A DNA stretch of 64,000 bases from the NCBI GenBank assembly GCA_003970805.2, contig CP051152.1, positions 2,170,001 to 2,234,000 of the forward strand, read 5' to 3'. Below are positions 1-54,114 of this stretch, one piece after another (positions within the stretch are counted from its first letter, which is position 1; every line of letters begins with the position of its first letter). The notes beneath the pieces were generated by a model. That model searched no databases. It was not told the origin of the DNA and saw nothing but the letters and a program-made list of their open reading frames with translations. The translations under genes were made by a program, and so were the position numbers. The DNA comes from Undibacterium piscinae (GTDB lineage Bacteria > Pseudomonadota > Gammaproteobacteria > Burkholderiales > Burkholderiaceae_D).

Positions 1-774
1 AGTCTGCGGCGCTATGCCGATGCCAAAAAGAATGCCGAATTAGCGCGGCAGCACTTCCCGCAAGAGAGAATCTTCGCCGACCAGCTGGGCAGTATCCACT
101 ACGCGCAAGACGACTACAAGGCGGCCGAAGCCGCCTTCAAGCTCAGCATACAATTGCAACCGGATGCAGTATTTTCCTACGCCAATCTGAGTGGTGCCCT
201 TATGAGCCAGAACCGCAATGACGAGGCGCTAGAGGTCTTGCAACAAGGTCTGCAACTACGTCCTAGTGCCATGCTGTACGGCAATCTAGGCAATGCCCAA
301 TTCTTGCGCGGCGATTATGTCGCCGCTGCTGCCGCCTTTGAACTGGCAGTATCACCCGACAAAGGCAACCCGGCAGACTATCTGGGTTGGGCCAATCTAG
401 CCGATACCCTGCTGTGGATACCCGGGCGCAAGGAAGAGGCACGTAAGGCCTACGACAAAGCAAAACTCTTACTTGCACCGAAGCTGGCACGTAGCCAAAA
501 TGATGCCACTTTAACGTCACGTATGGGCTTGTATGCGGCACGTACTGGCGACAAGAGCAAAGGTTTAGAATTATTGCAAAAGTCGGTCAACCTGGCTCCG
601 GAAGACGCCGCTGTGTTGTTCTACGCTGGACTAGGATATGAATTACTGGGAAACAGGGCGGAAGCGCTAGAGGCTATCGCCAAGGCTAAGAAGTTTGGTT
701 ATCCCATCAGCTTCATAGAAAACGAGCCGGATCTATTAGCACTACGCAGAGATGCGCGCTATTCGCGCCCTTAG
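1..774 (+). CDS. TPR-repeat protein, C-terminal part (5' end outside window)
   Basis: The reading frame is open from the first base, so the gene starts upstream of the window. The visible 257 residues are helical repeats of the tetratricopeptide type, with typical W/LG-Y-A-F-P positions (for example LSGALMSQNRNDEALEVL, then LYGNLGNAQFLRGDYVAAAA), and they end in a short tail, LRRDARYSRP. TPR solenoids bind partner proteins. Tails of this kind are common at the C-terminus of bacterial Ser/Thr kinases and adenylate-cyclase-like regulators, but no catalytic domain is visible here, so the enzyme identity is open. The next gene downstream has a sigma-54 promoter, and a convergent gene encodes an FHA-domain activator. 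That context would suit a kinase, but this is inference only. Confidence 0.75.
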   Translation, partial: SLRRYADAKKNAELARQHFPQERIFADQLGSIHYAQDDYKAAEAAFKLSIQLQPDAVFSYANLSGALMSQNRNDEALEVLQQGLQLRPSAMLYGNLGNAQFLRGDYVAAAAAFELAVSPDKGNPADYLGWANLADTLLWIPGRKEEARKAYDKAKLLLAPKLARSQNDATLTSRMGLYAARTGDKSKGLELLQKSVNLAPEDAAVLFYAGLGYELLGNRAEALEAIAKAKKFGYPISFIENEPDLLALRRDARYSRP

Positions 775-794
775 TATCGACAAGACATATCGTA

Positions 795-811
795 TTGGCA
801 TGAAAATTGCT
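795..811 (+). promoter_or_regulatory. Sigma-54 (RpoN) -24/-12 promoter
   Basis: The sequence TTGGCATG-AAAA-TTGCT matches the RpoN consensus YTGGCACG-N4-TTGCW with one mismatch. The invariant GG (797-798) and GC (809-810) are separated by exactly 10 bases. Transcription would start near 822, leaving a leader of about 70 bases before the ATG at 895. The convergent gene at 1277-2866 encodes a sigma-54 activator and is the obvious candidate regulator. Upstream activator sites would lie inside the TPR gene. Confidence 0.7.
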
Positions 812-894
812 AAATAGCCGCATAGTACTTGCTTTCTATTGCTAGAAATCTTGCCCTATGTTTTACCCCTCTTGTTAACTTTAAGGATATATCG

Positions 895-1269
895 ATGACC
901 ACGTTTACCTATACCGTCAACTGCCCGCCGGGCGTCGCAGGACAAGTTACCAATACCACGTGCACTCTAGCGCCCGCTGGCGACATCTACGATAACGATT
1001 TAATTGAATTTGTGTTTGTAGATAGTACAGGTGCAACAACCATACCTTTCGCCTGTACCATGCTGGTCATCAAAGCCCCGGGTAACCCGCATGAAGTGAT
1101 GGAGCCCTTTGTCGGCTACAAGGGACAAACCTGCATCAATTTGCTCACACTTACGACACCACTGACGATACGCCCTAGTGTTTCTGGTGCCTGGTCATTC
1201 TCGCTGCTATTTGTAGTCGATGGTCAAGCTTATTTCCTTGATCCAGTAATCATTATCAAACCCAACTAA
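895..1269 (+). CDS. Small protein of unknown function behind a sigma-54 promoter
   Basis: This encodes 124 residues. The ATG at 895 is chosen because AAGGAT lies at the right distance upstream and the preceding in-frame codons contain no better start. I do not recognise the family. The sequence is rich in V, I, T and aromatic residues in alternating patterns that suggest a beta-sandwich. It has no charged helices, no signal peptide and four cysteines (in NCPPG, TTCTLA, FACTM, QTCINL). It is the only gene directly behind the RpoN-type promoter at 795-811, and it ends 7 bases from the end of the convergent FHA/sigma-54 activator gene. The arrangement suggests that this protein is the regulated output of that activator, but its role is unknown. 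Confidence 0.7.
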   Translation: MTTFTYTVNCPPGVAGQVTNTTCTLAPAGDIYDNDLIEFVFVDSTGATTIPFACTMLVIKAPGNPHEVMEPFVGYKGQTCINLLTLTTPLTIRPSVSGAWSFSLLFVVDGQAYFLDPVIIIKPN

Positions 1270-1276
1270 TCCCCCA

Positions 1277-2866
1277 TCACCCCAGCAAACCCAAGCCCCG
1301 CAGATGACGCCGCAAGGCTTCGCTCGGGGTTTTGAGTAAGGCGGCGCAGCGTTCTACGTCGCCGCCACTGTTTGCCAGTGCCGCGCGCATTTCTTCCAGC
1401 GCGATTTGTTCTACCCTGCGTATCTGGCTATGCGTCTCTAGCAGCTTATACATAGAGGGACGCGAGACCCCCAGTTGTTGCGCGGCGGCCTGGATGTACC
1501 AGTCGTTTTCTTCCATCGCGCTCAGCACTTCGGCCTCGCTCAGTTCAGTCAATTTTTTGCGCACCGGTGCTGCTGGCGTGGCCGCGGCGTTGGCGCTGCT
1601 GGCGGTGTTGTTGCTCGTTGCGGGCGCTGCACTCGCCCCCAGCACGGTACACGCACTGAGTGTTGCGCTAGACAGAAAACTACTGGTGATACGCTCGGGC
1701 GAAATTTTCACCAAGGTCTCGAACAGAGGCACCTCTCCCATTTGCAGGGCCAGCATCACGCGCTTAAGTACATGCGCCAGCTGCCGGATATTCCCGGGCC
1801 AATCGTAACGCGCAAAATCGGTAATCAAAGAGTGCGGCAAACTCAAGCCCAGTTCTGCCATCTGAGTATTACTCTTGAGCAGATGCTGCATCAAGACGCC
1901 GATATCTTCACGGCGCGCGCGCAGCGGCGGCAGCTGGATCACAAAACTTTCCAGACGACGCAACAGGGCTTGATTGAAATGATCGCTATCGAGATCCTGA
2001 TCGGTAGCGGCGATTAGCCGGGCGCTAGAGTGCTGATCGTGCTGCGCACCGAGCGGGCGATAATCGCCGCCCTCTAACACTCGCAATAGCATGGGCTGCA
2101 CGCTGTCCGGCGTATTGCCGATTTCATCAAGAAACAGGGTGGCGCCTTCGGCTTCGGCAAACAGACCTTTGCGGCCGGTTTGCGCGCCAGTGTAGGCACC
2201 CTTAACCGCGCCGAACAGATCGGCGGCGGCCAGCGATTCATTCAGGGCCGCCATATTCACGGTAACTAAAGCACTCTTGGCGCGCAGGCTTAGGGCATGC
2301 ACGGCACGCGCCGCGATCTCTTTGCCGGTGCCGGTTTCGCCCAGCAACAAGACCGGCAAATCGGTGCCGGCGACCTGACGAATCTGGTCGCGCGCCACGA
2401 TGGCATGGCTGCCGACACCGAGCAAACCAGTCACCGGATTATTCTTGGGCAGGCAGCGCATCCAGTGCAGGCACAAGATGATGCTGCGCCCCAGACCGAG
2501 TATCTGGCCGCCTTCGATTTGATCGGCACTCAGGCTATGCGGTGCCAGCAGCTCTTCACCATTCAGTTCAACCACCATGCGGCTGGCCGACGGTACGATC
2601 TGCAAGCCGTTCTCGGCGTCGCGCACCAGCTTAAGCGGATCGCGCGAAATCCCGCCATGCCCAAGCGCTAAGCCCTCAGCACCAGGGCGGCGAAACAGCG
2701 GCAAGTAGCGACTTACTTCCAACACCCCGGCTCCACTACCGGCGATAAATTGCTCGCCTATGCGACTCGCATCGGGATGCCAGACTATCGTCAAGCCCAG
2801 CAAAGGATTGGCATCCTGACTGAGGGTAGACAAGGGCGAGGTAAGGGTGTGCTCGGTATCGATCAT
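1277..2866 (-). CDS. FHA-domain sigma-54-dependent transcriptional activator
   Basis: This is a bacterial enhancer-binding protein of 529 residues. The N-terminal third (about 40-135) has the layout of an FHA domain, including GHGGISRD at 69-76, which would bind phosphothreonine. The AAA+ domain follows, with Walker A GETGTGKE (176-183), the sigma-54-contacting loop GAYTGA (223-228, the accepted Y variant of GAFTGA), Walker B LFLDEIG (244-250) and the arginine-rich [10 protein letters not shown] region. An A/T/S-rich linker leads to two consecutive Fis-like helix-turn-helix units ([17 protein letters not shown], then [20 protein letters not shown]), where one is usual. FHA-type activators are typically controlled by Ser/Thr phosphorylation rather than by a response-regulator receiver domain. 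The gene is convergent with the small gene behind a sigma-54 promoter, its probable target. Confidence 0.88.
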
Positions 2867-3387
2867 GGCGTCGCTGCAGGCTTAAAAATACGTAAGCTGC
2901 TATTTTCACCGTTTTTGCGGATTTACGCTGGAATGCTTTGGGGAGTGTGGGTATTTTGAAGCGTTTTGAAAAGGCATAGGCCGGACGCGCATATCCCATG
3001 CGGCTTGGCAGCCATGCTGGCCTGCAAGGCGCATGGAATATGCGCGCTGGCGGCATGCCCTGTTGCGATCGCAATTACTGTTACTGTTCAGCCTTATACA
3101 AAGCCCTTCTCCCGTAGCGGGAGAAGGGTTGGATGAGGGTTGTCCAAATTAAAGCGCAATATTTGATTTTTCCATGGCGTTAAGCGTATCAGCTATTTTG
3201 AGGCAAGCGTTACTCAATCACCCTCCCTTGCAGGGCGCATATTCGCTTACTAAGCGAATTTGCTACACAGGTGGTGGCATGCCATTCAATCCCTGTTCCG
3301 CCCCCGGCCCTCTCCCGCTGCGGCGGGGCCGAGGAGTTTTCATCGCTGCCGGAACAGTTAGCAATGACTGCGCAACCAAGCGCAGAC
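2867..3387. other. Non-coding interval with palindromic repeats
   Basis: These 520 bases lie between the sigma-54 activator start and the end of the YaeR-like gene. The promoter of the activator must lie at the left end. The interval holds a GC-rich imperfect palindrome around 2979-3065 that shares the AACAGGGCATGCC motif with the element at 23731-23808. It also holds a perfect 11-bp stem at 3104-3128 and a G/C-rich tract near 3295-3335. No reading frame here has coding character. Confidence 0.5.
3104..3128. repeat. Perfect 11-bp inverted repeat
   Basis: CCCTTCTCCCG and CGGGAGAAGGG are exact reverse complements around a TAG loop, followed by TTGGATGAGGG. This short palindrome type is scattered through the intergenic DNA of many proteobacteria. 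There is no T-run, so it is not a clear terminator. Confidence 0.6.
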
Positions 3388-3777
3388 TCAGTCGCAGCTT
3401 TGATACAACTCTAAAGGCAAGCCGTCCGGGTCGGCGAAAAACACGAAGGGCTGGCCGGTGTATTCATCGATGCGTATTGCTTCGAGCGCGATGCCTTTCG
3501 CTTCCAGCGTCGCCTTGCACAGTGCTACATCGTCCACCGCAAACGCCAGATGCCGCAAGCCGCGTGCTTCCGGGTAAGAGGGGCGCGGCGGTGCATCCGC
3601 AAATGAAAATAGCTCGATTTGCGAGCCATCCGGCAAAGCAAGATCGAGCTTATACGATAGTCTTTGCTCACGATAATGTTCAGCCAGGACGCGCAGGCCG
3701 AGCAGCTCGGTATAAAAATGGCGCGAGACCTGGTAGTCAGAACAAATGATGGCGGCGTGATGCAGGCGTTTTAGCAT
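3388..3777 (-). CDS. gloA2: VOC family protein, YaeR/GloA2-like
   Basis: This encodes 129 residues with the single betaalpha-beta-beta-beta pair of modules of the vicinal oxygen chelate superfamily. It matches E. coli YaeR closely from memory: H-AII-DY-VS--FY at the start, the central segments IELFSF and GLRHLAFAVDD, and the end DPDGLPLELYQ. The metal-ligand positions of the fold are present (His near residue 7, Glu in IELFSF, His in LRHLAF, Glu in LELYQ). Members are annotated as glyoxalase I-like lyases, but the substrate of the YaeR branch is not established. It is followed on the same strand, 8 bases upstream, by a second and damaged VOC gene. Confidence 0.85.
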   Translation of the reverse strand: MLKRLHHAAIICSDYQVSRHFYTELLGLRVLAEHYREQRLSYKLDLALPDGSQIELFSFADAPPRPSYPEARGLRHLAFAVDDVALCKATLEAKGIALEAIRIDEYTGQPFVFFADPDGLPLELYQSCD

Positions 3778-3785
3778 GGTCGAGC

Positions 3786-4218
3786 TTAAGCTGAGTGGGC
3801 TGGCATATCGGATCGCGCATAAGGCGGCCCCTTGAGTTCGACCACATTGCCTTCCGGGTCATTGAGGTAGAGCGAGGGGCCATCGCCTTCGGCACCATAA
3901 CGGGTATCCACCGCACCGACCGTTATCCCCTTGGCCTGCAAAAATTCGCGGATGGCGTCGGCATCGAAGGGCTCTAAGCGCAGACAAAAATGATCGAGAT
4001 TGCGCCCGCCAGCGCCAGCAGCGGCACCGCCACTCTTGCCCAGCACGCCGTCTACCGGCACCAGATCAATTAAATGCTGACCAGCGCGCAATTGCACCAG
4101 ACCGATATCGTCCAGCCTGCGCTCTACGCTACAGCCCAAAACGCCACAGTAAAAATCCAGATGCGATCGAGATCGCTGACACGTAACACCGATGATCTAT
4201 ACCAACAATATGTATCAT
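3786..4218 (-). pseudogene. VOC family protein with two single-base deletions
   Basis: The in-frame 3' part (117 residues, ending in a LNDPEGNVVELKGPPY-type VOC tail) starts abruptly at MGCSVERR. Upstream, the expected N-terminus is present in the two other frames: ATG at 4218 reads MIHIVGIDH, the next frame reads VLRVSDLDR, and the third frame reads LDFYCGVLGC straight into the open frame. Restoring one base in the codon after GATCAT (near 4188) and one after GATCGC (near 4164) yields a complete VOC protein of 144 residues with the usual length and start. GAGAAAG precedes the ATG. The deletions are not in homopolymers. The gene lies beside the YaeR-like VOC gene and a decayed adhC. Confidence 0.8.
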
Positions 4219-4299
4219 ATTTTCTTTCTCGGGCCTGACTAAGGGAGGTTTTCTTCCGGAAGCGGGCAAAAATCAAGCCGGCAATCTAGCGCTTAGTTT

Positions 4300-5231
4300 A
4301 CTGAAGGACGGCATCACTTGTCGTGGTCGATACCGGCCCGGGCGTGACTAGCCTCCGCGTCTAGGCCGATCATGTGATTCCGCTCTACACGCCAGAATGC
4401 CGGCAGTGTAAATACTGCCTATCACGCAAGACTAACCTGTGTCAGGCGATACGCTCTACCCAGGGACGCGGCCTGATGCCGGATGCTACCTCACGCTTCT
4501 CGCTCGATGGCAAACCGCTGTTCCACTACATGGGTACCTCAACCTTTTCCAACTACATCGTAGTACCCGAAATCGCAGTCGCCAAAGTACGTAGCGATGC
4601 CCCTTTCGACAAGATCTGCTATATCGGCTGCGGCGTCACTACCGGCGTCGGTGCCGTCGTATTTAGCGCCAAGGTAGAAGCCGGCGCCAACGTGGTGGTA
4701 TTTGGCTTGGGCGGCATAGGCCTCAATGTGATACAGGCGGCCAAGATGGTCGGCGCGGACAAGATCATCGGTGTCGATATCAACCCGAGGCGCGAAGCGA
4801 TGGCGCGTAAATTCGGCATGACGCATTTCATCAATCCTAACCAGGTCGAAAACGTAGTCGACCACATCGTGCAACTAACCGACGGCGGTGCCGATTATTC
4901 GTTTGAATGCATAGGAAATACCAAGGTGATGCGGCAAGCGCTGGAATGCTGCCACAAAGGCTGGGGCCAATCTTTCATCATCGGTGTGGCGGAAGCCGGT
5001 GCCGAAATCAGCACCCGCCCGTTCCAACTGGTCACCGGGCGCGAATGGAAAGGCTCTGCCTTCGGCGGTGCGCGCGGCCGTACCGACGTACCGAAAATCG
5101 TAGACTGGTATATGGAAGGCAAACTCAATATCGACGATCTGATTACCCATCGCCTACCGTTAGAACGCATCAACGAAGGCTTTGACCTGATGAAGAGCGG
5201 TGAATCGATACGTTCAGTCGTGCTGTTCTGA
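4300..5231 (+). pseudogene. adhC: 5'-decayed S-(hydroxymethyl)glutathione dehydrogenase (class III ADH)
   Basis: From GTG 4374 the frame reads 285 residues of a glutathione-dependent formaldehyde dehydrogenase. It contains the structural zinc cysteines (PECRQCKYCLSRKTNLC), GCGVTTG, the NAD-binding GLGGIGLNVIQ and the normal C-terminus IRSVVLF. Family members are about 368 residues, so some 83 are missing. Immediately upstream the same frame still resembles the family (VDTGPGVTSLRV before ADHVIPLYT) but is interrupted by a TAG at 4362-4364. Further upstream the segments with the catalytic zinc ligands (GxCHTD and GHEGAG) are absent. The product would lack two of the three catalytic zinc ligands and should be inactive as an alcohol dehydrogenase. 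A hairpin follows at 5253-5283. Confidence 0.85.
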
Positions 5232-5533: not shown

Positions 5534-6658
5534 ATGAGCAAAGTAGTCATCAGTGGCACCGGTCTGTTTACTCCTCCAAATTCGATTTCCAATGAAGAAC
5601 TGATCGCCAGCTTTAACGCTTACGTCGCGCAATTTAATCTCGATAACGCCAACGCAATCGCCAACGGTAGCGTCACTGCACTAGAGCCTTCCAGCGTCGA
5701 ATTCGTAGAAAAAGTATCCGGCATTAAATCGCGCTTCGTCATGGATAAAGAAGGCGTACTTGACATCACACGCATGGTACCGCGCATCCCGGAACGTAGC
5801 GATGATGAGCCTTCCATCATGTGCGAAATGGCCGTGGCCGCTTCACTACAGGCTCTGGAACGCGCTGGCCGCAGCGCTGCGGATGTAGATGCCGTGATCG
5901 TCGCCTGCAGCAATCTGCAACGCGGCTATCCTGCAATTGCGGTTGAAGTGCAAAGCGCATTGGGTATCGATGGCTATGGCTACGATATGAATGTGGCCTG
6001 CTCTTCTGCCACGTTTGGCATTCAGGCTGCGGTCAGCGCGATTCAAAGCGGACAGGCACGCGCCGTACTGGTAGTCAATCCTGAAATCACCAGCGGTCAC
6101 CTGAACTGGCGCGACCGCGACAGCCACTTCATCTTCGGTGATGCTTGTACCGCGATTCTGTTAGAACGTGCCGATCTGGCCACATCAAAACATCAGTTTG
6201 AAGTGGTCGCAGTTAAACTGAAGACGCAATTCTCGAACAACATCCGTAACAACTTTGGTTTCCTGAACCGCGCTGATGAATCTGGCGTAGGCAAGCCAGA
6301 CAAACTATTCCGCCAGCAAGGCCGTAAAGTGTTTAAAGACGTCTGCCCTATGGCTGCCGCCATGATCACCTCGACTACGGCAGCCGCCGATATACAGATC
6401 GACGACATCAAACGCTTCTGGCTGCATCAGGCTAACCTCAACATGAACCTGCTGATCGCCCGCCTGATTCTGGGCCGCGACGCCACTGCGGAAGAGTCTC
6501 CAACGATTTTGGACACTTACGCCAACACCTCATCGGCTGGTTCCGTCATCGCCTTCCACAAGCACCAGGACGATCTGGCAACTGGCGCGGTAGGCGTGAT
6601 CTGCTCGTTTGGCGCCGGTTACTCGATAGGCTGCGTAGTAGTGAAAAAACTGGGCTAA
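5534..6658 (+). CDS. Beta-ketoacyl-ACP synthase III (FabH2-like)
   Basis: This thiolase-fold condensing enzyme of 374 residues carries the complete KAS III triad. Cys156 is in NVACSSATFG, His298 in WLHQANLNMN and Asn331 in ANTSSAGS. It is about 50 residues longer than the FabH of fatty-acid initiation. From memory it resembles the Pseudomonas PA3286 type, which feeds medium-chain acyl-CoA into fatty acid synthesis. That function is inferred from family resemblance only. It is a single gene, preceded by a 300-base AT-rich upstream region and followed directly by a strong intrinsic terminator at 6682-6710. Confidence 0.85.
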   Translation: MSKVVISGTGLFTPPNSISNEELIASFNAYVAQFNLDNANAIANGSVTALEPSSVEFVEKVSGIKSRFVMDKEGVLDITRMVPRIPERSDDEPSIMCEMAVAASLQALERAGRSAADVDAVIVACSNLQRGYPAIAVEVQSALGIDGYGYDMNVACSSATFGIQAAVSAIQSGQARAVLVVNPEITSGHLNWRDRDSHFIFGDACTAILLERADLATSKHQFEVVAVKLKTQFSNNIRNNFGFLNRADESGVGKPDKLFRQQGRKVFKDVCPMAAAMITSTTAAADIQIDDIKRFWLHQANLNMNLLIARLILGRDATAEESPTILDTYANTSSAGSVIAFHKHQDDLATGAVGVICSFGAGYSIGCVVVKKLG

Positions 6659-6676
6659 AATTGCCGCTCTGAAGTA

Positions 6677-7837
6677 ATGCCAAAAAGCTCGCGACATGCG
6701 AGCTTTTTTTCGGCTTCGGCTGCCGCCAGCGCTAGCGCGACGGCTGAAAAAGTCGGCGACAACAAAAAGAAGGCCGAAAAGCCGGCGCCAAAATTGCTGA
6801 TCGCCGCCGAAGACATCATGACTGTGCAAAACAATGCACTGGCTTCCGGCCCGGTCGTGACCGGCTCGATACAGCCGGAACGCAAGGCTGATCTGCGTGC
6901 TGAAGTGTCAGCCGTGGTACTGCAGGTGCTGAAAGAAAATGGCGAGAGCGTCAAGCGCGGTGATGTGCTGGTCAAACTCGATGAAACCTCGATCCGCGAC
7001 AATCTTAATTCCGCCGAAGACAATGCGCGCAGCGCCGCCATGTCTATGGATCAGGCCGAGCGCGCCCTGCAGCGTCTGAAAACCCTGCGTGCCTCGGGCA
7101 TGGCATCCTTACAGGCCTTAGATGAAGCCGAGATGCGCAAGAACACCGCACAGAGCGAACTCTCGGCATCCAAAGCGCGTGCTGCGGCGGCGCGTCAGCA
7201 ATTACAGCGCACAGTGGTGCGCGCCCCATTTGACGGCATCGTCAGTGAACGCAAGGTATCGAATGGCGACACCGCATCGATCGGCAAGGAAATGGTCAAG
7301 GTGATAGATCCAAGCAGCATGCGCTTTGCCGGCCGCGTCTCTACCGACAAGATTGCCATGGTCAAGGTAGGCCAGGCGGTGAGTTTTCGCATCAATGGTT
7401 ATGCCGGGCAAGAGTTTCGCGGCAAGGTGACGCGGGTAGACCCGGCCGCCAACGATGTCACGCGCCAGGTCGAAGTCCTGGTTGCCTTCGCCGATGCCAG
7501 CCAGCCTAAAGTCTCGGGCCTGTATGCGGAAGGAAATATCGAGGCGCAAACCGTGAATGCCTTGATGCTGCCGGAGGCGGCAGTAGTCAAGGTCGGCGAT
7601 AAATCCTATGCCTGGCAAGTCAAGGGCAAGAGTCTGGCACGCGTCGATCTGCAAATCGGCAAGCGCGACCAGCGCACCGGCAATTTTGAAATCCGCAGTG
7701 GCCTTAGCGCAGGCGACATCGTCATGCGTAGCCCCAGCTCTAGCTTTAAAGACGGTCAGAGCATAGAGATGGCTGTGCCGAAAGTGGCGGTACCTAAGCT
7801 GGCAATGGCTGACATCACTGACGCGCAAGGAAAATAA
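6677..7837 (+). CDS. RND efflux periplasmic adaptor (membrane fusion protein), abnormal N-terminus
   Basis: The protein has the order of an HlyD/AcrA-type adaptor: the first lipoyl half (RAEVSAVVLQVLKENGESV), an alpha-helical hairpin rich in A/E/Q (about 115-175), the second lipoyl half (VRAPFDGIVSERKV), then the beta-barrel and membrane-proximal domains. The stop codon is followed 2 bases later by the pump gene, so the pair is one operon. The N-terminus is odd. The only ATG (6677) opens inside the terminator hairpin of the preceding gene and gives MPKSSRHASFFSAS, which has no signal peptide or lipobox, although the family needs export. The A/S-rich stretch up to SATAEK may be the remains of a signal sequence. 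The true start is uncertain. Confidence 0.8.
   Translation: MPKSSRHASFFSASAAASASATAEKVGDNKKKAEKPAPKLLIAAEDIMTVQNNALASGPVVTGSIQPERKADLRAEVSAVVLQVLKENGESVKRGDVLVKLDETSIRDNLNSAEDNARSAAMSMDQAERALQRLKTLRASGMASLQALDEAEMRKNTAQSELSASKARAAAARQQLQRTVVRAPFDGIVSERKVSNGDTASIGKEMVKVIDPSSMRFAGRVSTDKIAMVKVGQAVSFRINGYAGQEFRGKVTRVDPAANDVTRQVEVLVAFADASQPKVSGLYAEGNIEAQTVNALMLPEAAVVKVGDKSYAWQVKGKSLARVDLQIGKRDQRTGNFEIRSGLSAGDIVMRSPSSSFKDGQSIEMAVPKVAVPKLAMADITDAQGK
6682..6710 (+). terminator. Intrinsic terminator of the KAS III gene
   Basis: AAAAAGCTCGC pairs exactly with GCGAGCTTTTT around GACAT, followed by a run of T (6704-6710). It sits 24 bases after the stop codon of the synthase gene. It lies inside the first codons of the open frame assigned to the RND adaptor. 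Confidence 0.9.
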
Positions 7838-7839
7838 TC

Positions 7840-13200: not shown

Positions 13201-14757
13201 TTAATGACTAGTACCCGCCGAGCGTGAAATCTTGTTGAAGATATTGTACTTGCCGCTAGGTTTTCTCATGGGCAGGCGTTTCACCACTTGCAGGGTTTTG
13301 GCGTCGTAAATCACCAGTTCGCCATCGTTTTCCCAGATGCTGACCAGTGCGTATTTACCGTCACGGGTAAACTCGGTATGCGCTGCCACTTTGCCAGGAC
13401 TAGGCCGCAGTTCAGCAATCACCTCAAGTTTTTGCTTATCGATGATCTGAATCACGTCACGGTCTTTGCTGCCGTTAAACACGTCAACCCAGGCGTAAGG
13501 CGTATTTTCATGGCTGCGCATAAAGAAGCCCGGCCCCAGCGTAGGAATTTGCTTTTCAGTTTGCCAGGTGTTCATATCGACTACGGTGACCACGCCTTCT
13601 TTCAGGTTAGGCGTTGCCAGTACCGGTTTGCCCTGATATTCCCAGGTAATGCCGGAACCCAGATGCGGCATGCCGGGTAAGGCAACGCTAGTGAGTTTTT
13701 TCCCGGCATCGAGGTCTATGACCTGGCCGACGCCGCCGCGCGACGAACCTATCAGATGCTTGTAGCTACCGTCAAAAAAGAAATCATCCAGATAATCATC
13801 GAGTCGCAAGCGACGCGGCTGGAACGATGGTTCTTCGATTTTTTTGCTGTTGAGCTTACCCGCTTTGCCGTCATAGCTAAATTCCCAGACTTCAGGAATG
13901 TCTTTCAAGGCAGCGATAAAGCTCTTGCGCGGAGCGGCGTCATACACGGCCGACACCCTTGAAGATTTTCCGCTATCGTCGGTCACGTCAACGATCTTGA
14001 GCGGGGTCAGATCCTTGGTATCCAACACCACCATGGTATGCGGCAGGTAATTGGCGATCATGGCATAGCGACCATCGCTAGAGATCGCCAGATTGCGGGT
14101 ATTGATACCGACCCGGATTTCCGAGATCAGTTTCAGGTTCCAGATATCGTATTTGGCCACCCAGCCATCGCGCGAGGCAAAGTACACATACCGCCCATCC
14201 GGTGAAAACTTAGGGCCGCCATGCAGCGCATAACGTGTGGAAAAACGCGTAATCGGCTCAAACTTATCGCCATCGAGGATGGTTGCGTGATGATCGCCGA
14301 GTTCTACGACCACAAACAAATTGAGCGGGTCAGCCTTAAACACCGGCTTGTCCTGCAATTTGCCGGTTTGATGAACTATGCGCGAAGCCCGCATTTCACG
14401 CATGCCCCAGGCTGGCGTGGTGGCCAGCGGCGTATAGATCAACTCGGTCAGCGCTTTCACTTCGGCGCCATTAAGCTTATCGCCAAAGCCCGGCATCTGG
14501 GTGGCGATGCGCCCTTCGGCAATAGTTTTGATCGCATCCGGACGACGTAAACGTTCCAGATTACCCGGCAACAAGGCCGGGCCATTAAGGCCTAAGCGGT
14601 CAGCGCCGTGACAGGAGGCGCAATTGGCCTGATACAGCGCATTGCCATCTATCTTGGCTTCGGCTGGCGCAGTCGCAATATCGGCCGCTGCTGCAAAAGA
14701 CGAAGCGGCAAACAAGCCCAACAACAAACCAGTCAAAGGTGTAAGTCTATACATCAT
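13201..14757 (-). CDS. nirN: NirN, cytochrome c / d1 protein (dihydro-heme d1 dehydrogenase)
   Basis: This encodes 518 residues. It has a signal peptide ending near AAAADIA, a cytochrome c domain with CASCH (Cys46, Cys49, His50) and a distal Met region (IATQMPGF), then an eight-bladed d1-type beta-propeller. It resembles NirS, but the C-terminus RKPSGKYNIFNK and lineage features fit NirN, which oxidises dihydro-heme d1 in the last step of heme d1 synthesis and hands it towards NirS. It is the last gene of the leftward nir operon, and its ATG overlaps the nirJ stop by 4 bases. No nirS gene is in the window. Confidence 0.85.
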   Translation of the reverse strand: MMYRLTPLTGLLLGLFAASSFAAAADIATAPAEAKIDGNALYQANCASCHGADRLGLNGPALLPGNLERLRRPDAIKTIAEGRIATQMPGFGDKLNGAEVKALTELIYTPLATTPAWGMREMRASRIVHQTGKLQDKPVFKADPLNLFVVVELGDHHATILDGDKFEPITRFSTRYALHGGPKFSPDGRYVYFASRDGWVAKYDIWNLKLISEIRVGINTRNLAISSDGRYAMIANYLPHTMVVLDTKDLTPLKIVDVTDDSGKSSRVSAVYDAAPRKSFIAALKDIPEVWEFSYDGKAGKLNSKKIEEPSFQPRRLRLDDYLDDFFFDGSYKHLIGSSRGGVGQVIDLDAGKKLTSVALPGMPHLGSGITWEYQGKPVLATPNLKEGVVTVVDMNTWQTEKQIPTLGPGFFMRSHENTPYAWVDVFNGSKDRDVIQIIDKQKLEVIAELRPSPGKVAAHTEFTRDGKYALVSIWENDGELVIYDAKTLQVVKRLPMRKPSGKYNIFNKISRSAGTSH

Positions 14758-15956
14758 GCTATTTTTACCCCGCGAATCGGGATGTAAGGAGACAAGGTGA
14801 CGCGTTCGCGCTCACTACTGACGCCTATCTCTTCGTCGGACAAATAACAGGCGGGATCTTCCTGCCATGGATCATCGGTCAGTTGCAGCGCGCGTACCCG
14901 GGTATTGCCGCCGCAGACATCAAAATAGCTACACTCACCGCAACGCCCCTTGATCTTGCGCGGCACCGCTTTCAGGCCCGCCATCAAAGGATCGGAGACA
15001 TCGGTCCAGATATCGGAAAACTTACGCTCGCGCACATTGCCCAGCGGGTAGTGCCACCAGAACGTATCCGGATGCACGACACCGAGGTTGTCGATATTGG
15101 CGACATTCACGCCTGAAGAATTACCGCCCCATTGCGCCAGTTTGGCACGCAATGCCGCTTCGCGCTCAGGGAAACGGGCGCGCACCCATTGCAACAGGTA
15201 AACGCCGTCGGCATCGTTATTGCCGGTGACAAATTCTTTTTCCAGACCACGCTGCAGGTAATCCCAGCAGGTGTCAAACAACAGATCCATCGCATTGCGG
15301 GTAGTCTGCAGGAAAGCGTCACGGCCACGGTTCTTGTTACCACGACCGGCGTAATTGAGGTGCGACAGATAAAACTTGTCTATGCCTTCGTCTTCTACCA
15401 GTTTCAGCAAGGCAGGCAAATCGTGGGCATTGTCTTGCGTCAGCGTAAAGCGCACGCCGATCTTGATACCGGCATCACGGCACAGGCGCACGCCATGCAG
15501 CGATGCGTCAAACGCGCCTTGCTTGCGGCGGAATTCGTCATGGGTTTCACGCATGCCATCTAAGCTGATACCGACATAATCAAAACCGATCTCGGCGATT
15601 TGCGCGATATTGCTTTCATCGATCAGGGTACCGTTGGTCGACAGGCCGACGTAAAAACCCATCTGTTTGGCGCGTCTGGCGATCTCGTAAATATCCGGGC
15701 GCAACAACGGCTCGCCACCGGACAAGATCAACACCGGTACGCGGAAGTCTTTCAGGTCATCCATGGTGGCATTGACTTCCGCCGTACTCAGTTCGCCGGC
15801 AAAATCCTTGTCGGCAGAAATCGAATAGCAGTGCTTGCAAGTAAGGTTGCAACGGCGGATCAGATTCCAGATCACCACCGGCCCCGGTGGATTACGTTTT
15901 GGGCCTAATGGCGTAGGGCTGGCGATTTCGCGCATGTATTGGCTGATACGAAACAT
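14754..15956 (-). CDS. nirJ: Heme d1 biosynthesis radical SAM protein NirJ
   Basis: This encodes 400 residues. The radical-SAM 4Fe-4S motif CNLTCKHC is at Cys36/Cys40/Cys43, followed by the SAM-binding GGEPLLRPD. A C-terminal cysteine set (GRCGECSYFDVCGG and DPACYL) matches the auxiliary-cluster region of NirJ and related SPASM/twitch proteins. NirJ removes the propionate side chains of 12,18-didecarboxysiroheme to give the heme d1 precursor. It lies between nirH (11-base gap) and nirN (4-base overlap) in one operon. Confidence 0.92.
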   Translation of the reverse strand: MFRISQYMREIASPTPLGPKRNPPGPVVIWNLIRRCNLTCKHCYSISADKDFAGELSTAEVNATMDDLKDFRVPVLILSGGEPLLRPDIYEIARRAKQMGFYVGLSTNGTLIDESNIAQIAEIGFDYVGISLDGMRETHDEFRRKQGAFDASLHGVRLCRDAGIKIGVRFTLTQDNAHDLPALLKLVEDEGIDKFYLSHLNYAGRGNKNRGRDAFLQTTRNAMDLLFDTCWDYLQRGLEKEFVTGNNDADGVYLLQWVRARFPEREAALRAKLAQWGGNSSGVNVANIDNLGVVHPDTFWWHYPLGNVRERKFSDIWTDVSDPLMAGLKAVPRKIKGRCGECSYFDVCGGNTRVRALQLTDDPWQEDPACYLSDEEIGVSSERERVTLSPYIPIRGVKIA

Positions 15957-15967
15957 GATTTTTTCCT

Positions 15968-16567
15968 CTATGCGGTAATAGGCTGAGTTGATTCAGTTGG
16001 CGCGTTTTTTACGCGGTTTTTTGCGCGATTTTTTTCTGCTAATCTCAAGCCAGTCTTTTTCAAAATACGGGTGCTATACAAGACCTGATGCGCACGCACA
16101 GGCTCGCCCTGCAATTGCGTCAGCAAAGCGGCGATACTCGCCACCTGGACTTCGACTTCTTCACGGGTTTTGCCGTGCACCATGGCAAACAGGTTATAGC
16201 GCCATTGCGGCAAATGGCGCGGACGACGGTAACAATGGCTGACAAACGGCAAGCTGCCGATACGCTCGCCTAGCAGATCTATCATCTCGTCGGGAACATC
16301 CCAGACCGACATGCCATTGGCGCGATAACCGAGCGCATAATGATTCGGCACCACGCCGATGCGACGTATCACGCCACGGTCCTGCATCTGCGTCATGCGC
16401 TGCATCAGCAACTCGGGGCTGATCTGCAATTGCCCGGCGATCTGATGATAAGGCCGCGCCACCAGCGGCAAGCCGCCCTGGGTGGCGACGATGATGGCGC
16501 GGTCGAGCTCGCTGTAATCCACGCTGTAATCCATATTATGGTGATCGGTAGTATTCATATTCTTCAT
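15968..16567 (-). CDS. nirH: Siroheme decarboxylase subunit NirH
   Basis: This is an AsnC/Lrp-like protein of 199 residues. A winged-helix N-terminus (ELDRAIIVATQGGLPLVARPY) is followed by the family motif CYRRPRHLPQWRYNLFAMVHGK-type segment shared with NirL. With NirD, NirL and NirG it forms the enzyme that decarboxylates siroheme to 12,18-didecarboxysiroheme. Its ATG overlaps the nirG stop in an ATGA. A basic tail (KNRAKNRVKN) extends it beyond the usual length of about 170. Confidence 0.88.
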   Translation of the reverse strand: MKNMNTTDHHNMDYSVDYSELDRAIIVATQGGLPLVARPYHQIAGQLQISPELLMQRMTQMQDRGVIRRIGVVPNHYALGYRANGMSVWDVPDEMIDLLGERIGSLPFVSHCYRRPRHLPQWRYNLFAMVHGKTREEVEVQVASIAALLTQLQGEPVRAHQVLYSTRILKKTGLRLAEKNRAKNRVKNAPTESTQPITA

Positions 16568-17007
16568 GCGCGCAGCTTTAGCTCGACAAAATATTCCTTA
16601 CTCTTAGGAAAATTAAACACCGCACATCCGGTCTCTTGCTCTATCACTTTAATGACATCGAAAATCTGTTCCGGCGTTTCGGTAGCGACCACAAACCACA
16701 TATTGAGTTCATGCTCGCGTTCATAGTTATGCGCCACTTCCGGCAAGGCATTGACCTTGGCGGCAACGGCATCGTAATGTTCAGCCGGTGCATGCAAGGC
16801 TGCCAGCGTAAACGCGCCACCGGCCCGTTCAATCTGAAACAAGGGGCCGATACGGGTCAGGATGCCGCGCTCCAGCAGGCTGGCCAGACGCGTGATTAAC
16901 TCGTCTTCACTGGTCCCTAGTTCATTGGCTGCGACCAGATAAGGCTGTTCGCAAACCTGCAAACCGCCCTGCAAATGGTTAATGATGGCCCGGTCTAATT
17001 CATCCAT
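16564..17007 (-). CDS. nirG: Siroheme decarboxylase subunit NirG
   Basis: The ATG at 17007 (MDELDRAIINHLQGG) gives 147 residues, the known NirG size. An upstream extension would overlap the previous gene by 40 bases and is not needed. It has an Lrp-type winged helix, then NYEREHELNMWFVVA, the NirD/NirG version of the active-site region. It overlaps the nirDL stop by 8 bases and the nirH start by 3, which indicates translational coupling. Confidence 0.87.
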   Translation of the reverse strand: MDELDRAIINHLQGGLQVCEQPYLVAANELGTSEDELITRLASLLERGILTRIGPLFQIERAGGAFTLAALHAPAEHYDAVAAKVNALPEVAHNYEREHELNMWFVVATETPEQIFDVIKVIEQETGCAVFNFPKSKEYFVELKLRA

Positions 17008-18106
17008 GGAGAGTCTCTTTGTTGATATCCGGGCGGGCAATTGACATGCCCGCTATCACCGTTTTTGTAGTGACAGCCGGATTCATATAATGCGCGCCGC
17101 GCTGCTTGAAACGGCGCTGGCTAAACAGCGTCGTGTGCGTATAGTGGGACAGGCCGCAAGCCTCGGCCAGCGCAGTGATGCGCGCTTCCACATCGGCCCT
17201 GTCCTTGCCATGTATCATGCAAAACAGATTGTAAGGCCAGTGCGGTAATTGTCTTGGCCGGCGATAGCACAGCGTCACCCGGCCGGAAGCGGCAATCTTA
17301 CGCCCGACTGCGCTGACCTCGGCATCTGGCACATCCCACACCACCATGGCATTGGCACTAAAGCCGAGCTCATGATGCCGCACGATGACACCGAAGCGCT
17401 TGATCACGCCCTGCTGGCACCAGCGTGCAATGGTTGCCAGCGCCAACTCCTCTGCCACACCCAGTGTGGCAAAAGGCCGGGCGACCAGCGGCAAACCATG
17501 TTGCAGGGCTGCCAGCAAGGTTTTTTCCGTCTCGTCCAATGGCAAAATGCCGTCGCTATGGTCTTTGGCAGAGATGGCTGGCGGCTCTGTCACTGGGCTC
17601 TGCTGACGATAATGCGGTCCGGAAGCGCTCAGGTCAAAACCGAGATCGATATGAAAATCTTCCAGCATAGGCAGGATCAGCACCGCACCACAATCGCAGG
17701 CTAGTTCGATCTGATGCAAGGCGGCATGCAAAAGCTCTAGCGTGGCGGCAGTCGCCACAAACCACAGATTGTAGTGATGTTCGCGTTCGTAATTGTGATT
17801 GACCTCGCTGCGGGCGCTAACGAAAGCGGCCACTTCAGCCAGCCGCTCGCCGGGTACCGCCAAAGCCGCCAATGCACTGGCACCGACCGCATTGGGCCTA
17901 AATACCGCACCGATGCGGCTGATCGCGCCATCCTGCTGCAATTGCTGCAAGCTCGTGATGACACTCGCTTCATCACAGCCAAATTGTTCGGCCAGCGCCG
18001 CATACGGCCTGGACACCAAAGGAAAATCGCGCTGAAACGCATTGAGCAAACGAAACTCAAAGGCATTCGATGGCCCGCTCTGGCTTAAATCTACACTAGC
18101 GTTCAT
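17000..18106 (-). CDS. nirDL: Siroheme decarboxylase fused subunit NirDL
   Basis: This natural fusion of 368 residues has NirD-like residues 1-165 (winged helix, then NYEREHHYNLWFVA) joined by a linker (SPVTEPPAISAKDHS) to a NirL-like half (DETEKTLLAALQHGLPLVARP, then CYRRPRQLPHWPYNLF). Fused NirDL is known in several denitrifiers, where the protein alone or with NirG/NirH decarboxylates siroheme. It is separated from nirF by a single base. The last codons overlap nirG. Confidence 0.9.
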   Translation of the reverse strand: MNASVDLSQSGPSNAFEFRLLNAFQRDFPLVSRPYAALAEQFGCDEASVITSLQQLQQDGAISRIGAVFRPNAVGASALAALAVPGERLAEVAAFVSARSEVNHNYEREHHYNLWFVATAATLELLHAALHQIELACDCGAVLILPMLEDFHIDLGFDLSASGPHYRQQSPVTEPPAISAKDHSDGILPLDETEKTLLAALQHGLPLVARPFATLGVAEELALATIARWCQQGVIKRFGVIVRHHELGFSANAMVVWDVPDAEVSAVGRKIAASGRVTLCYRRPRQLPHWPYNLFCMIHGKDRADVEARITALAEACGLSHYTHTTLFSQRRFKQRGAHYMNPAVTTKTVIAGMSIARPDINKETLHG

Positions 18107-18107
18107 C

Positions 18108-19376
18108 TTAGAATCCTATACGTCCGGCGCGTGTGGTGAAAAAAATGCCGCTAGGTGCCTGCGCCGGCAATTCCTTGCGTACCGCAAAATTGCTGGTGTC
18201 ATAGATCACCACGCGGTTATCGTCACGCGCCGAGATCCAGACCGATTCGCCACGCGGGGTAAATTCCATGTGCAGCACCGCCTTGCCCGGCTCGATTCGC
18301 TTGATCACGCTGCGGGTTTCCACGTCTATCACTTGTACCTGGCCATTATCAGGGAAGGCAAAATTGACCCAGACCTGACGGCCATCAGGGCGCGCAATCA
18401 CGAACACAGGTTGACCGGCGACCTTGACGCGGCCCACTTCCTGCCAGGTCGCGGTATCCATCACCAACACCTCATTACGGCCGATTGCCGGCACGTAAGC
18501 GAAACGTCCCGCCACGGCCCAGCCGCGCAAATGCGGCATCTTATACACGGGAAGTTTTTCGCTACCCTTGCCATAGCCATCGAGAATGCGGCGCACGCCT
18601 TTTTCCGGATGCCACATATCAAGCAAGGCCATGCCATCTTCACCGAACAAACCGGCCATATAAAAGCGGCCGTCAGGAGTGATCAGGCCGTCATACGGTT
18701 CACGCCCGATGTTGGCAAATTTTGTCACGCGCGGATGCGCATTTTTGTCGCTTTTGTCGCTTTTGTCGCTGATATCGCTGATATCGGCAGTCCAGATTTC
18801 GCCGGCATCAAACAGGCTCCAGACGAAACGGTTACCCGGTGCATCGGCCAAACCCACCACTTTGGAAAATTTCCCTTCCTTGCCGTAAGCGGCGGGAATA
18901 TCGGCCACCAGTTCCAGCGTATCGGCCCTGAATATTTTCACGCCGCCCGGCGCATAATTTTGCGCCGCGACAAAACGGCCATCCTGGGAAATCGCACCGC
19001 CTATGCTATTGCCGGCTTGTATCACGCGCAAGGCAATCTCGCCTTTCAGCAAATCAAGCTTGGTCAGGCCACCGTCACGCCCGAACACGTAGGCGTAACG
19101 CCCGTCACGCGAATACACCAGCGAGGCATGCGAGAGATCACCCAGGCCAGGTATGCTGGCGATCGATGTCATTTTACTGGTGTCGATGACCTGTACACTG
19201 CCACTGGCACGTTCTATGATCACGCCCAGGTCACCGGTGCCGCGCAACACGGTGGCATTGGCAGTCTTGGCAACGGCAGCAACCGGAGCGGGCGTGACGC
19301 TAGCGCAGCCACTCAACACGCCTAAGGCGGCAATCAGCAATACGCTGAGTAAAGTTTTATTTGATTTATTTTTCAT
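18108..19376 (-). CDS. nirF: NirF, heme d1 biosynthesis lipoprotein
   Basis: This encodes 422 residues with a lipoprotein signal (LLSVLLIAALGVLSGC, lipobox LSGC) and a d1-type beta-propeller similar to that of NirS/NirN but without the cytochrome c domain. NirF binds heme d1 precursors in the periplasm and is required before the NirN step. It is longer than the usual 390 or so, in part because of a low-complexity insert (DISDISDKSDKSDK, residues about 199-212) encoded by a 9-bp tandem repeat. Its start overlaps the nirC stop by 11 bases. Confidence 0.9.
   Translation of the reverse strand: MKNKSNKTLLSVLLIAALGVLSGCASVTPAPVAAVAKTANATVLRGTGDLGVIIERASGSVQVIDTSKMTSIASIPGLGDLSHASLVYSRDGRYAYVFGRDGGLTKLDLLKGEIALRVIQAGNSIGGAISQDGRFVAAQNYAPGGVKIFRADTLELVADIPAAYGKEGKFSKVVGLADAPGNRFVWSLFDAGEIWTADISDISDKSDKSDKNAHPRVTKFANIGREPYDGLITPDGRFYMAGLFGEDGMALLDMWHPEKGVRRILDGYGKGSEKLPVYKMPHLRGWAVAGRFAYVPAIGRNEVLVMDTATWQEVGRVKVAGQPVFVIARPDGRQVWVNFAFPDNGQVQVIDVETRSVIKRIEPGKAVLHMEFTPRGESVWISARDDNRVVIYDTSNFAVRKELPAQAPSGIFFTTRAGRIGF
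18743..18787. repeat. 9-bp tandem repeat inside nirF
   Basis: Five 9-base units occur in a row on the + strand: TTTTGTCGC three times, then TGATATCGC and TGATATCGG. On the coding strand they encode a Ser-Asp-Lys / Ser-Asp-Ile repeat. Unit gain or loss would keep the frame. Confidence 0.8.
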
Positions 19377-19812
19377 CGGGGAATCCTTTTTGTAACTGCT
19401 CCACTATCCATGCCGCTTCCGCTTCGCTCAGGAAACGTTTCCATGGTGGCATTGCCGTGCCGGGGCGACCATACACAATGGTGGCCTGCAGGCTATCAGC
19501 CGGTTTACCCCTGAGCGTATCAGGCAATAAAGCCGGCCCCAGACCGCCTTTCAGGGTCAGCCCATGGCATGAACCGCAATCCTGGCGTACCAGGGTGATC
19601 AACTCACCGCGCCGTGCCGGACTTGGAGCCGCCACCTCGGCTTGCGCTGCTGCAGGCGACGCTGCCAAAGCCGTATTGAGCGGTAGCAAATTGAGCGCAC
19701 AGGCACAAACGATCAACGGCAGCTTGAGTATGGATGCGGGCGTTAGCCACATCGGCCTTGCCGAAATGGCGTCAGGCTGTTTTCTTTGCTTCAAATGACG
19801 CACTTCTTTCAT
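19366..19812 (-). CDS. nirC: c-type cytochrome NirC
   Basis: This is a monoheme cytochrome c of 148 residues. It has an N-terminal export signal (LKLPLIVCACALNLLPLNTALA), heme site CGSCH (Cys79, Cys82, His83) and a distal Met in GTAMPPWKRFLSE. NirC is a small periplasmic electron carrier for nitrite reductase and heme d1 maturation. It is the first gene of the leftward nir operon. The FNR/DNR-type box lies about 120 bases upstream. A shorter start at the ATG giving MWLTPAS would also leave an intact signal peptide. Confidence 0.82.
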   Translation of the reverse strand: MKEVRHLKQRKQPDAISARPMWLTPASILKLPLIVCACALNLLPLNTALAASPAAAQAEVAAPSPARRGELITLVRQDCGSCHGLTLKGGLGPALLPDTLRGKPADSLQATIVYGRPGTAMPPWKRFLSEAEAAWIVEQLQKGFPDEK

Positions 19813-19926: not shown

Positions 19927-19940
19927 TTGATAAGCGTCAA
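19927..19940. promoter_or_regulatory. FNR/ANR/DNR-type box between nirC and nirE
   Basis: TTGATAAGCGTCAA fits TTGAT-N4-RTCAA, the site for oxygen- or NO-sensing Crp/Fnr regulators, and is the form preferred by Pseudomonas ANR/DNR. It lies 115-130 bases upstream of nirC and 63 bases upstream of nirE, so it could serve both divergent promoters. A perfect 12-bp palindrome, GATTGCGCAATC, lies in the same spacer at about 19871-19882. Confidence 0.7.
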
Positions 19941-20002: not shown

Positions 20003-20560
20003 ATGACGCAGCCGCCCGCCACTTCATTCATAGTTAAAAAGCAAAATACGGGCACGGTATATCTGGTCGGCGCCGGCCCTGGCGATCCGGAATTACTGAC
20101 CGTACGCGCAGCAAAATTACTAGGCCTGGCCGATGCCGTGGTCTACGATCACCTGGTCAGCACAGAAATACTGGCACTGGTACAAACTGACGCCGAGCTG
20201 ATTTATGTCGGCAAGCAAGAAAGCATGCATACGCTGCCGCAGGACGGCATCAACGCTCTACTGGTACGTCTGGCAAAGCAGGGAAAAAATGTGGTCAGGC
20301 TCAAGGGCGGCGACCCTCATGCGCTGCCCCCTGCTCTACCGAAAATGCCAAGAGTCCGCCGCGGCGCAAGGCCAATCGCGCACCTTCAAACACCGCCTGC
20401 AGATCACCGATATACACCAGCACATCGGCTGCCGCAATCAAGTCAAAACAGTCCGGCTGCAACGCTAAAAACTGGCTCAGCTCTGCGCATATCAGTTCGT
20501 CGTATAACGCCGTTTGCGCGGCCTTATCCAGCATTTTTTCAGACAAATCAACGCCAGTGA
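20003..20560 (+). pseudogene. nirE: Uroporphyrin-III C-methyltransferase (NirE/CobA), truncated
   Basis: The first 105 codons are a clear SUMT N-terminus: [31 protein letters not shown], then [10 protein letters not shown]. Family members are about 260 residues and continue PFIFGRGGEE. Here homology stops right after GGDP at about 20317. The frame then runs on to 20560 in sequence that is antisense to the TPR-methyltransferase gene and has no SUMT character. The SAM-binding C-terminal half is missing, so the fragment should be inactive. In its place and orientation, divergent from nirC across an FNR-type box, the gene would supply precorrin-2 for heme d1. See the entry for 20301-21665, which is cut at the same point. 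Confidence 0.85.
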
Positions 20561-21665
20561 GTCGATGCGAGTAAGGCCGTAAAAACGGCGCGCACAAGCC
20601 AGTACCACAACCGGCATCGAGCGTATCTAGTTCGCCCTTTGCCCTATGTCTATCGATAGCCTCGGCTAACAGTCGCGGCACCTGATACTGTAAAACCCCT
20701 TGCAGATGCTGATCAAAATGCCCGGCATACTGATCAAACAATTCTTTGACATAGCTGGCCGGCGCAACGGCTGGGGTGTCGCCCACGCCTAGCGCAGCGA
20801 GCAGATAATTGAGTTGGCTAGCGTCAGCGCCATGCGCCAGGGCTTGTTGGTAAGCGCCTATCGCCTGCTGCGGACGGTCCAGCGCACGCAAAGCATTGCC
20901 ACGATAGTGATGGGCATTAGCGTAATCTGGCCGTATCTGCAGCGCCAGCTCAAAACTATCCAGCGCCGCTTCGTATTCATGCAGCTTGTGCAGCGCGGTA
21001 CCGCGATTACACCAGGCTTCGGCATAATCAGGATTGATGCGCAGCGCACCCTCATAACTGTGTATCGCCTCTTCATAATGCTGCAGGCTTTGCAGTGATA
21101 CGCCGCTGGCACACAGCGCCTGCGCATAGGATGGCCTTAGCTGCAGTGCGCAGGCACAGTCTTCCAGCGCTTGCTCATGTAAGCCCGACATCTGCAGGCT
21201 GAGAGCACGGTGGTAATACGCTTCCGGATAGGCAGGTAAAATCTGCAAGGCCTCATCGTAACTGCGTAATGCCTCGTCTAGCCTGCCCAATATGCGCAGG
21301 GCGTTGCCGCGGTTGTGATGCGCCATCGCATAGTCAGGCTTGATGGCGATGGCACGCTCATAGCTGGCCAAGGCCGCCGCTGCTTGCGCCAGATCTTGCA
21401 AGGCAGCGCCCAGATTGCAGTGCGCTACCGCTTGCCTGTCGTCAATCGCGATGGCCTGACTAATCAATTCAACCGCGGCCTGCGCATCGCCGCTTTGCCT
21501 GGCGATCACCCCCGACAAATGCAAGGCATCAAACTGCTGCGGCTGTAACTGTAGCACCTGTCGATACGCTAGCCCGGCCTGTTGCAAATCACCTCGCTGA
21601 TGTAAGCTTAGTGCATGCTGCAACAGCGCGCTGATATCTGAGGACGCGGGCAAAGGAGGCTGCAA
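20301..21665 (-). CDS. TPR-repeat SAM methyltransferase, 3'-truncated
   Basis: About nine TPR units (roughly residues 5-300, each with patterns such as [24 protein letters not shown]) are followed by a class I methyltransferase domain ([17 protein letters not shown], motif [28 protein letters not shown]). The domain ends abruptly after [16 protein letters not shown], where relatives continue for about 60 more residues, and the last codons derive from the antisense of nirE. The fold lacks its last strands. The start is a TTG at 21665 without a clear ribosome site. The frame stays open upstream into the FKBP gene, so the start is uncertain. The target is unknown. Confidence 0.75.
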
Positions 21666-53618: not shown

Positions 53619-54114
53619 TTAGTGCGTAGTTGCCGGTGCAGCCTGATCACCTGCTTCTGCCAGCAATTTTGCCTGCTGCTCAGCAACGTTTTGCAAACGC
53701 TGTTGATAGAAAGCCTCAAAATTGATTTCGGTCAGATGAATCGGTGGGAAGCCGGCACGAGTGATGGCATCAGCGATGTTCGAACGCAGGTAAGGATACA
53801 AAATATTCGGACAACCTATGCCCAGCAACGGATCGAGTTGGTCTGTAGGAATATTGCGCGCTTCAAATATACCGGCTTGCTTGCCTTCTACCAGGAACGC
53901 AACTTTATCATTGATTTTTTGCGGTAACAGTCACTGTCACTGTCGACTCCACTACGCCTTCAGCCAATTGCTCTGCGCCTACATCGAGGGAAACTTCTAT
54001 CGTCGGAGCTTCTTGCTCCAAAAAGATTCCTGGCGAATTTGGCTGTTCAAGCGACAAATCTTTCAGATAAACGCGTTGAATTTGAAATACGGGCTGCAGA
54101 TTTTCGTCAGACAT
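53619..54114 (-). pseudogene. secB: Protein-export chaperone SecB, one frameshift
   Basis: ATG 54114 reads [20 protein letters not shown] and then [17 protein letters not shown], the SecB peptide-binding core, but ends at [12 protein letters not shown]. With one A fewer in the run at 53925-53930 it continues [20 protein letters not shown] through [17 protein letters not shown] to the usual end at 53619, 164 residues in all. SecB tetramers hold preproteins unfolded for SecA. As written, the dimer/tetramer interface and SecA-binding tail are lost. The indel is in a homopolymer, so sequence error is likely. Confidence 0.9.

Follow-up and report, generated by a model that had tools for sequence, protein, structure and literature searches.

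Two cut genes at one site beside the nir cluster

The window analysed here is a stretch of 64,000 nucleotides (G000:C1:2170001-2234000) from the Undibacterium piscinae genome (G000), a single contig of 4,186,344 bp. A complete-looking nir cluster for heme d1 synthesis runs leftward from 19812 to 13201 with all frames open, and is headed by the remnant of nirE, the gene for a SAM-dependent uroporphyrinogen III methyltransferase (SUMT; TIGR01469/PF00590), which is linked to these genes and starts divergently at 20003. The features at this locus are as follows.

13201..14757, minus strand: nirN-like gene (cytochrome c and Cytochrom_D1 domains), named by size and domains, open frame
14754..15956, minus strand: nirJ, TIGR04051 over its cut-off, open frame
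15968..16567, minus strand: nirH-like siroheme decarboxylase subunit, open frame
16564..17040, minus strand: nirG-like siroheme decarboxylase subunit, best family score under its cut-off, open frame
17000..18106, minus strand: nirDL-like siroheme decarboxylase, open frame
18108..19376, minus strand: nirF-like gene (Cytochrom_D1), named by size and position, open frame
19366..19812, minus strand: c-type cytochrome in the nirC position, open frame
20003..20317, plus strand: nirE (SUMT) remnant, 105 of about 280 codons
20318..20560, plus strand: continuation of the nirE frame as a chimeric tail that reads the antisense of the methyltransferase gene
20316..20317: join, with the last methyltransferase-matching base at 20316 (minus strand) and the last nirE-matching base at 20317 (plus strand)
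20301..20315, minus strand: last, chimeric part of the methyltransferase frame, which reads antisense nirE
20316..21665, minus strand: remnant of the TPR-methyltransferase gene (about 451 of 506 codons), with a complete Methyltransf_11 core but without the 55 C-terminal residues

The name nirC given to the cytochrome gene is our assumption, made from its position. Between nirC and nirE, TTGATAAGCGTCAA (19927-19940) is a candidate FNR/DNR-type box.

The open reading frame at 20003-20560 (plus strand) encodes 185 residues, and in profile searches its SUMT match is limited to residues 17-106, which cover positions 1-90 of 238 in TIGR01469 and 1-89 of 212 in Pfam TP_methylase. The N-terminal SAM-binding half is present, including GAGPGDPE with the GAGPGD motif of that half; a complete SUMT domain is absent, the TIGR01469 score being 130.6 bits, below the curated cut-off of 185. 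Over its first 105 residues the product is 95-96% identical to the three nearest database NirE proteins (P0001-P0003, each 280 aa), which it tracks to ...KGGDP (nucleotide 20317) before the alignment diverges, and it lacks residues 106-280 of full-length NirE. The opposing frame at 20301-21665 (minus strand, 454 aa) likewise tracks the two nearest TPR-repeat methyltransferases (P0121, 98%, and P0122, 96%, both 506 aa) to ...SVEQGAAHE (residue 451, nucleotide 20316) and then diverges. It keeps the TPR array and the class I SAM core that follows it (Methyltransf_11, 1-95 of 95), while the 55 further residues that form the full C-terminal end of its relatives are replaced by three of antisense nirE. 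The initial annotation had claimed that SUMT homology ends right after GGDP at about 20317, that the methyltransferase loses some 60 C-terminal residues at the same point, and that each gene ends by reading the antisense of the other; the alignments bear this out, with the methyltransferase shortened by 55 residues. As the two homologies overlap by just 2 bp (20316-20317), there is no long microhomology at the join, and microhomology was rejected as its cause.

It had further been claimed that heme d1 synthesis would lack its dedicated methyltransferase unless a second SUMT substitutes. One other full SUMT gene, which is CobA-like, does exist in the genome (L001, 259 aa, TIGR01469 243.8 bits against the cut-off of 185); the gene upstream of it looks like cysN. 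An intact second SUMT is thus present and might substitute for NirE; if the join is artefactual, nothing would be missing in the organism. Elsewhere in the same genome, a 269-aa protein of tetrapyrrole-methylase fold (L004 1480-2289), with a 133-aa ORF downstream, presumably resembles peptide backbone N-methyltransferases. Many genomes of the genus carry just one full SUMT gene. In Paracoccus denitrificans, at least two SUMT genes are reported, one of which heads its nir operon (PMC4063343).

Uncut relatives and the missing DNA

Synteny in relatives, which had been proposed as a check, reveals the uncut convergent pair in Undibacterium parvum (G014; contig of 4,910,324 bp). The gene order there is that of the window, and nirE (282 aa) and the methyltransferase gene (501 aa, P0124) lie intact, tail to tail, 356 bp apart; in the collinear alignment, 1,080 bp of U. 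parvum sequence correspond to 11 bp of the window. When the 43 genomes of the genus were queried with nirE at E 1e-30, the genomes that matched besides the window's own were G014 (U. parvum), G035 and G023, in each of which the open frame is longer; the nir cluster of G024 holds a further SUMT. The five nearest full-length database proteins (three NirE and two methyltransferases) are presumably metagenomic, and for these near-identical proteins, whose gene arrangement is not visible, the evidence is protein length. Among the best 120 of 241 NirE relatives, 118 have at least 250 residues, and the remaining two, P0095 with 130 and P0113 with 181 residues, sit on contigs of 1,406 and 802 bp; the best 120 of 698 methyltransferase relatives all have at least 486 residues. 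None of the best 120 of 241 relatives of the chimeric 185-aa ORF (E 1e-30, from 8000 candidates scored) aligns over more than 68% of it. A further 80 loci on named genome contigs, the nearest 64% identical, lie outside this analysis.

Relatives with the same compact junction, which the initial annotation had named as the observation that would refute a truncation, were thus found neither in the genus genomes nor among the best 120 of 241 and 120 of 698 database relatives. It is extremely improbable that both proteins work, and are conserved, in their short form: the complete methyltransferase core would be compatible with it, yet nearly all relatives are longer, as counted above, and the nirE product lacks 148 of the 238 SUMT profile positions.

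Relative to the database proteins, nirE is short of about 528 bp and the methyltransferase gene of 168 bp (stops included), and the intergenic stretch is absent as well, in total about 1.05 kb if the latter is as long as in U. parvum. A search of the single-contig genome for the missing halves, as had been suggested, recovered neither: the missing nirE half matched only the CobA paralogue at 30% identity, and the methyltransferase domain with its end matched only the remnant itself and a further sequence at 23%. Since the lost halves were not found elsewhere, the join is of deletion type, and of the deletion, inversion or assembly join that had been placed at 20313-20318, a join stands (at 20316/20317), whereas inversion, like relocation, is disfavoured. 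Neither remnant has decayed. At positions where the relatives agree among themselves, only one of 105 NirE residues departs from the six compared and none of 451 methyltransferase residues from the five compared, and the distances of both remnants to outgroups resemble those of the intact proteins, which implies an event that is either very recent or not real.

The main alternative to an assembly fault is that the sequenced strain has genuinely and very recently lost about 1 kb, a deletion by which nirE and the methyltransferase gene were both knocked out; the CobA-like SUMT could then feed heme d1 synthesis, or nitrite respiration may be in the course of being lost. The clean join, the native flanks, the open frames of the other nir genes and the intact CobA-like SUMT are all consistent with such a deletion, as is the damage in the nirS region of the same assembly described below. 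In addition, U. parvum carries a hairpin between nirE and the methyltransferase gene (L086 2536-2615; 16 of 16 arm positions paired), inside the stretch absent from the window, which could provoke a deletion. Against it, no relative shares the event (among the best 120 of 241 and 120 of 698), and the condition of the assembly in the regions compared below renders it unlikely.

Joins, frame breaks and U. parvum-like blocks in the compared regions

Three regions totalling 362 kb were compared with U. parvum: region A around nirS (158 kb), region B with the window and its flanks (104 kb) and region C around cobA (100 kb), of which A and B were picked for their nir genes and C alone was picked independently, by cobA. 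With a join defined as at most 60 bp in one genome against at least 600 bp in the other, 13 joins are short in G000 (6, 4 and 3 in A, B and C) and one is short in U. parvum (1, 0 and 0), an average of one deletion-type join for every 28 kb or so of compared sequence; the short joins lack 0.8-3.4 kb of U. parvum sequence. ORFs of at least 150 aa behave alike. Out of 267 in U. parvum, 202 are complete in G000, 17 are partial (13 + 2 + 2), 47 have no homologue of 60% identity in the compared region and one edge ORF was left out, while in the opposite direction only 4 of 270 G000 ORFs (2 + 2 + 0), the fused nirS among them, have a partial counterpart in U. parvum. Frameshift-like splits, some of which may be alignment breaks, number 29 in G000 (6 + 12 + 11) versus 3 in U. 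parvum (0 + 0 + 3). In a control pair, G020 and G021, which at 95.5% identity is less diverged than the test pair, partial ORFs amount to 0 of 86 and 1 of 88, and frameshift-like splits to 4 (86 ORFs) in one direction and 1 (88 ORFs) in the opposite one; given these 4 in 86, the split rate of G000 (29 of 267) is raised, though not without parallel. A second control pair, G006 and G037, is not collinear (6.9 kb aligned of 100 kb).

Within the window, besides the nirE join, the comparison yielded the following.

1..4323: U. parvum-like tract, 98.7% identical in a background of about 80%, beginning about 2.5 kb left of the window
4321-4323: deletion-type join at the end of this tract, where U. 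parvum has 1792 bp
6710..6712: deletion-type join, 1 bp here versus 2695 bp in U. parvum
53622..54114, minus strand: secB, frameshifted after about 66 codons, the frame ending after 68 codons

Frames are broken in secB, fabI and gcvP (three places; those of FabI and GcvP in L187) and, according to protein alignment, in mrdA (PBP2); a XerC-like protein, just under its cut-off, is also among the frameshift-like splits. Eight blocks of at least 1 kb and at least 97% identity to U. parvum, 58.4 kb in total, stand in a background of mostly 72-90%, a 5.2-kb block at 95.9% having been left out of the count. Those elsewhere than in the window (97-100% in about 80%) lie within G000:751562-808580, G000:1508615-1515008 and G000:1555614-1559801, and the longest extends over 23,348 bp at 99.996% identity with a single mismatch. 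Of the five blocks in region A, three show 0-2 mismatches and 2-7 gaps, every gap being in G000; another has 8 mismatches and 13 gaps (9 in G000, 4 in U. parvum). In the region-B block, at the left end of the window, 25 mismatches were counted along with 30 gaps, 19 of them in G000 and 11 in U. parvum. Seven of the 13 joins border on one of the eight blocks.

Not included among the 13 joins is another convergent double truncation, which affects nirS and NnrS near 808.6 kb of G000 (about 8581-8630 of L142, which is G000:800000-818000). Here nirS is identical to that of U. parvum up to codon 588 of 597 and then runs into NnrS, which is cut to its first 265 of 386 residues; nirM and a 421-aa Cytochrom_D1-like gene of U. 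parvum are absent, and the truncation coincides with the end of the 23.3-kb block.

Gene-truncating joins and indel errors are characteristic of noisy or mixed-strain assemblies. G000 shares with these its many deletion-type joins, breaks in normally indispensable genes and blocks that resemble a second strain, and differs from them in that single-letter-run errors account for a minority of the gaps inside the near-identical blocks (1 of 7 and 1 of 6, for instance). The many broken genes, several of them normally indispensable, together with pieces near-identical to another species, speak for a faulty, probably mixed assembly, of which we regard the U. parvum-like blocks and the short joins as signs. 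Because of this state of the rest of the assembly, with an uncut arrangement in a relative and with the same faults recurring elsewhere but far more rarely in the comparator, we favour an assembly join: judged from comparative sequence data, the nirE/methyltransferase junction is most probably an artefact rather than biology. In the organism, nirE and the TPR-methyltransferase gene would most probably be complete and tail to tail as in U. parvum, and the contig would skip about 1.05 kb, namely the last 175 or so nirE codons, the intergenic stretch and the last 55 or so methyltransferase codons, as if two pieces of sequence had been wrongly joined. Reads or contigs of two related strains may have been mixed, in which case the reads should fail to support the join.

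Some observations count against an artefact. The nirE join adjoins no U. parvum-like block, both flanks being native (78% and 72% identical to U. parvum), and the single contig has an estimated completeness of 97.39% with a contamination of 0.74%. The scarcity of single-letter-run errors among the gaps and the presence of gaps in both genomes in the block at 1-4323 point the same way, and the choice of regions A and B for their nir genes and the splits in the control pair weaken the case for an artefact. A real deletion, however, would be one of 13 alike joins in 362 kb that also contain 29 frameshift-like splits, some in normally indispensable genes. Hairpins in the U. parvum segments missing here (9 versus 4.5 expected, at least one in 7 of the 13 segments) are only weakly enriched, too little for a palindrome-driven deletion to be relied on. 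A very recent exchange of DNA with U. parvum, whose illegitimate ends caused deletions such as the nirE join, would explain blocks of up to 23 kb that are essentially identical to U. parvum and the DNA missing at several of their ends, but no such block flanks the nirE join on either side, the exchange would have to be very recent to leave eight blocks within 362 kb and just one mismatch in the longest, and the frameshifts in native stretches would be left unexplained; we consider this highly improbable.

nirS without heme d1 synthesis genes in the genus

A NirS (PF02239, E < 1e-150) was called in 15 of the 43 genus genomes, G000 being counted with its fused copy in a U. parvum-like block. NirJ exceeds its cut-off in five of the 43, and the siroheme decarboxylase family does so in the same five. 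Ten genomes (G001, G002, G003, G006, G007, G008, G012, G016, G018 and G033) hence possess nirS with neither NirJ nor siroheme decarboxylase over cut-off, nine of them being at least 98% complete and G033 89%; G019 (73% complete) adds a nirS fragment as an eleventh genome. In G006, NirS aligns with the Pseudomonas aeruginosa enzyme along almost its entire length (E 2.4e-258). In G031, a 3-kb contig (L216, G031:C38:1-3011), possibly a stray one, carries a nirN-like C-terminal fragment 91% identical to the window's nirN beside a 385-aa NnrS; the 43-genome profile search gave no NirJ over cut-off and no NirS match in this genome.

One clade of TonB-dependent receptors, 57-67% identical to the G006 copy, is confined within the genus to these 11 genomes, the five heme d1 synthesisers and the 27 other genomes all lacking it (up to 24 candidates scored per genome); family-wide, it is found in the same 11 of 392 genomes (best two candidates per genome scored). 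Receptor relatives of only 32-37% identity are present in others, including the synthesiser G024. In the nine genomes with enough flank read, the distance between the receptor gene and nirS is never more than about 7 kb (L144, L149, L203-L209), for instance at 9612-11933 of L149 in G006 with nirS at 6644-8395, and on another contig than nirS in the fragmented G033 and G019. On a NirS tree of 14 rows (G000 and G019 left out), in which 5 of 11 inner branches are weak, the synthesis label needs three changes, at least two of them forced by well-supported branches, so that the receptor association is probably not due to a single inheritance. Its distribution suggests that the receptor may be an uptake system for heme d1 or a precursor that replaces synthesis. 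Literature searches on heme d1 combined with a TonB-dependent receptor, auxotroph or missing biosynthesis genes returned no such report among the papers listed.

Were the nirE deletion real, it could be read as the beginning of a loss of heme d1 synthesis, within a genus that would have gained or lost this ability more than once and in which the ten nirS genomes may import the heme d1 of their neighbours; the window strain, which lacks the TonB receptor clade, would then be a decaying synthesiser with CobA as a stopgap for NirE. We give this scenario little credence. A real join would make it testable whether CobA can replace NirE. On the favoured reading of an assembly artefact, the finding is a warning that gene loss should not be inferred from this single-contig genome: taken at face value, the record suggests that the strain has lost nirE, the end of nirS, nirM and part of NnrS, and the blocks that apparently belong to U. 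parvum include most of the nirS copy itself.
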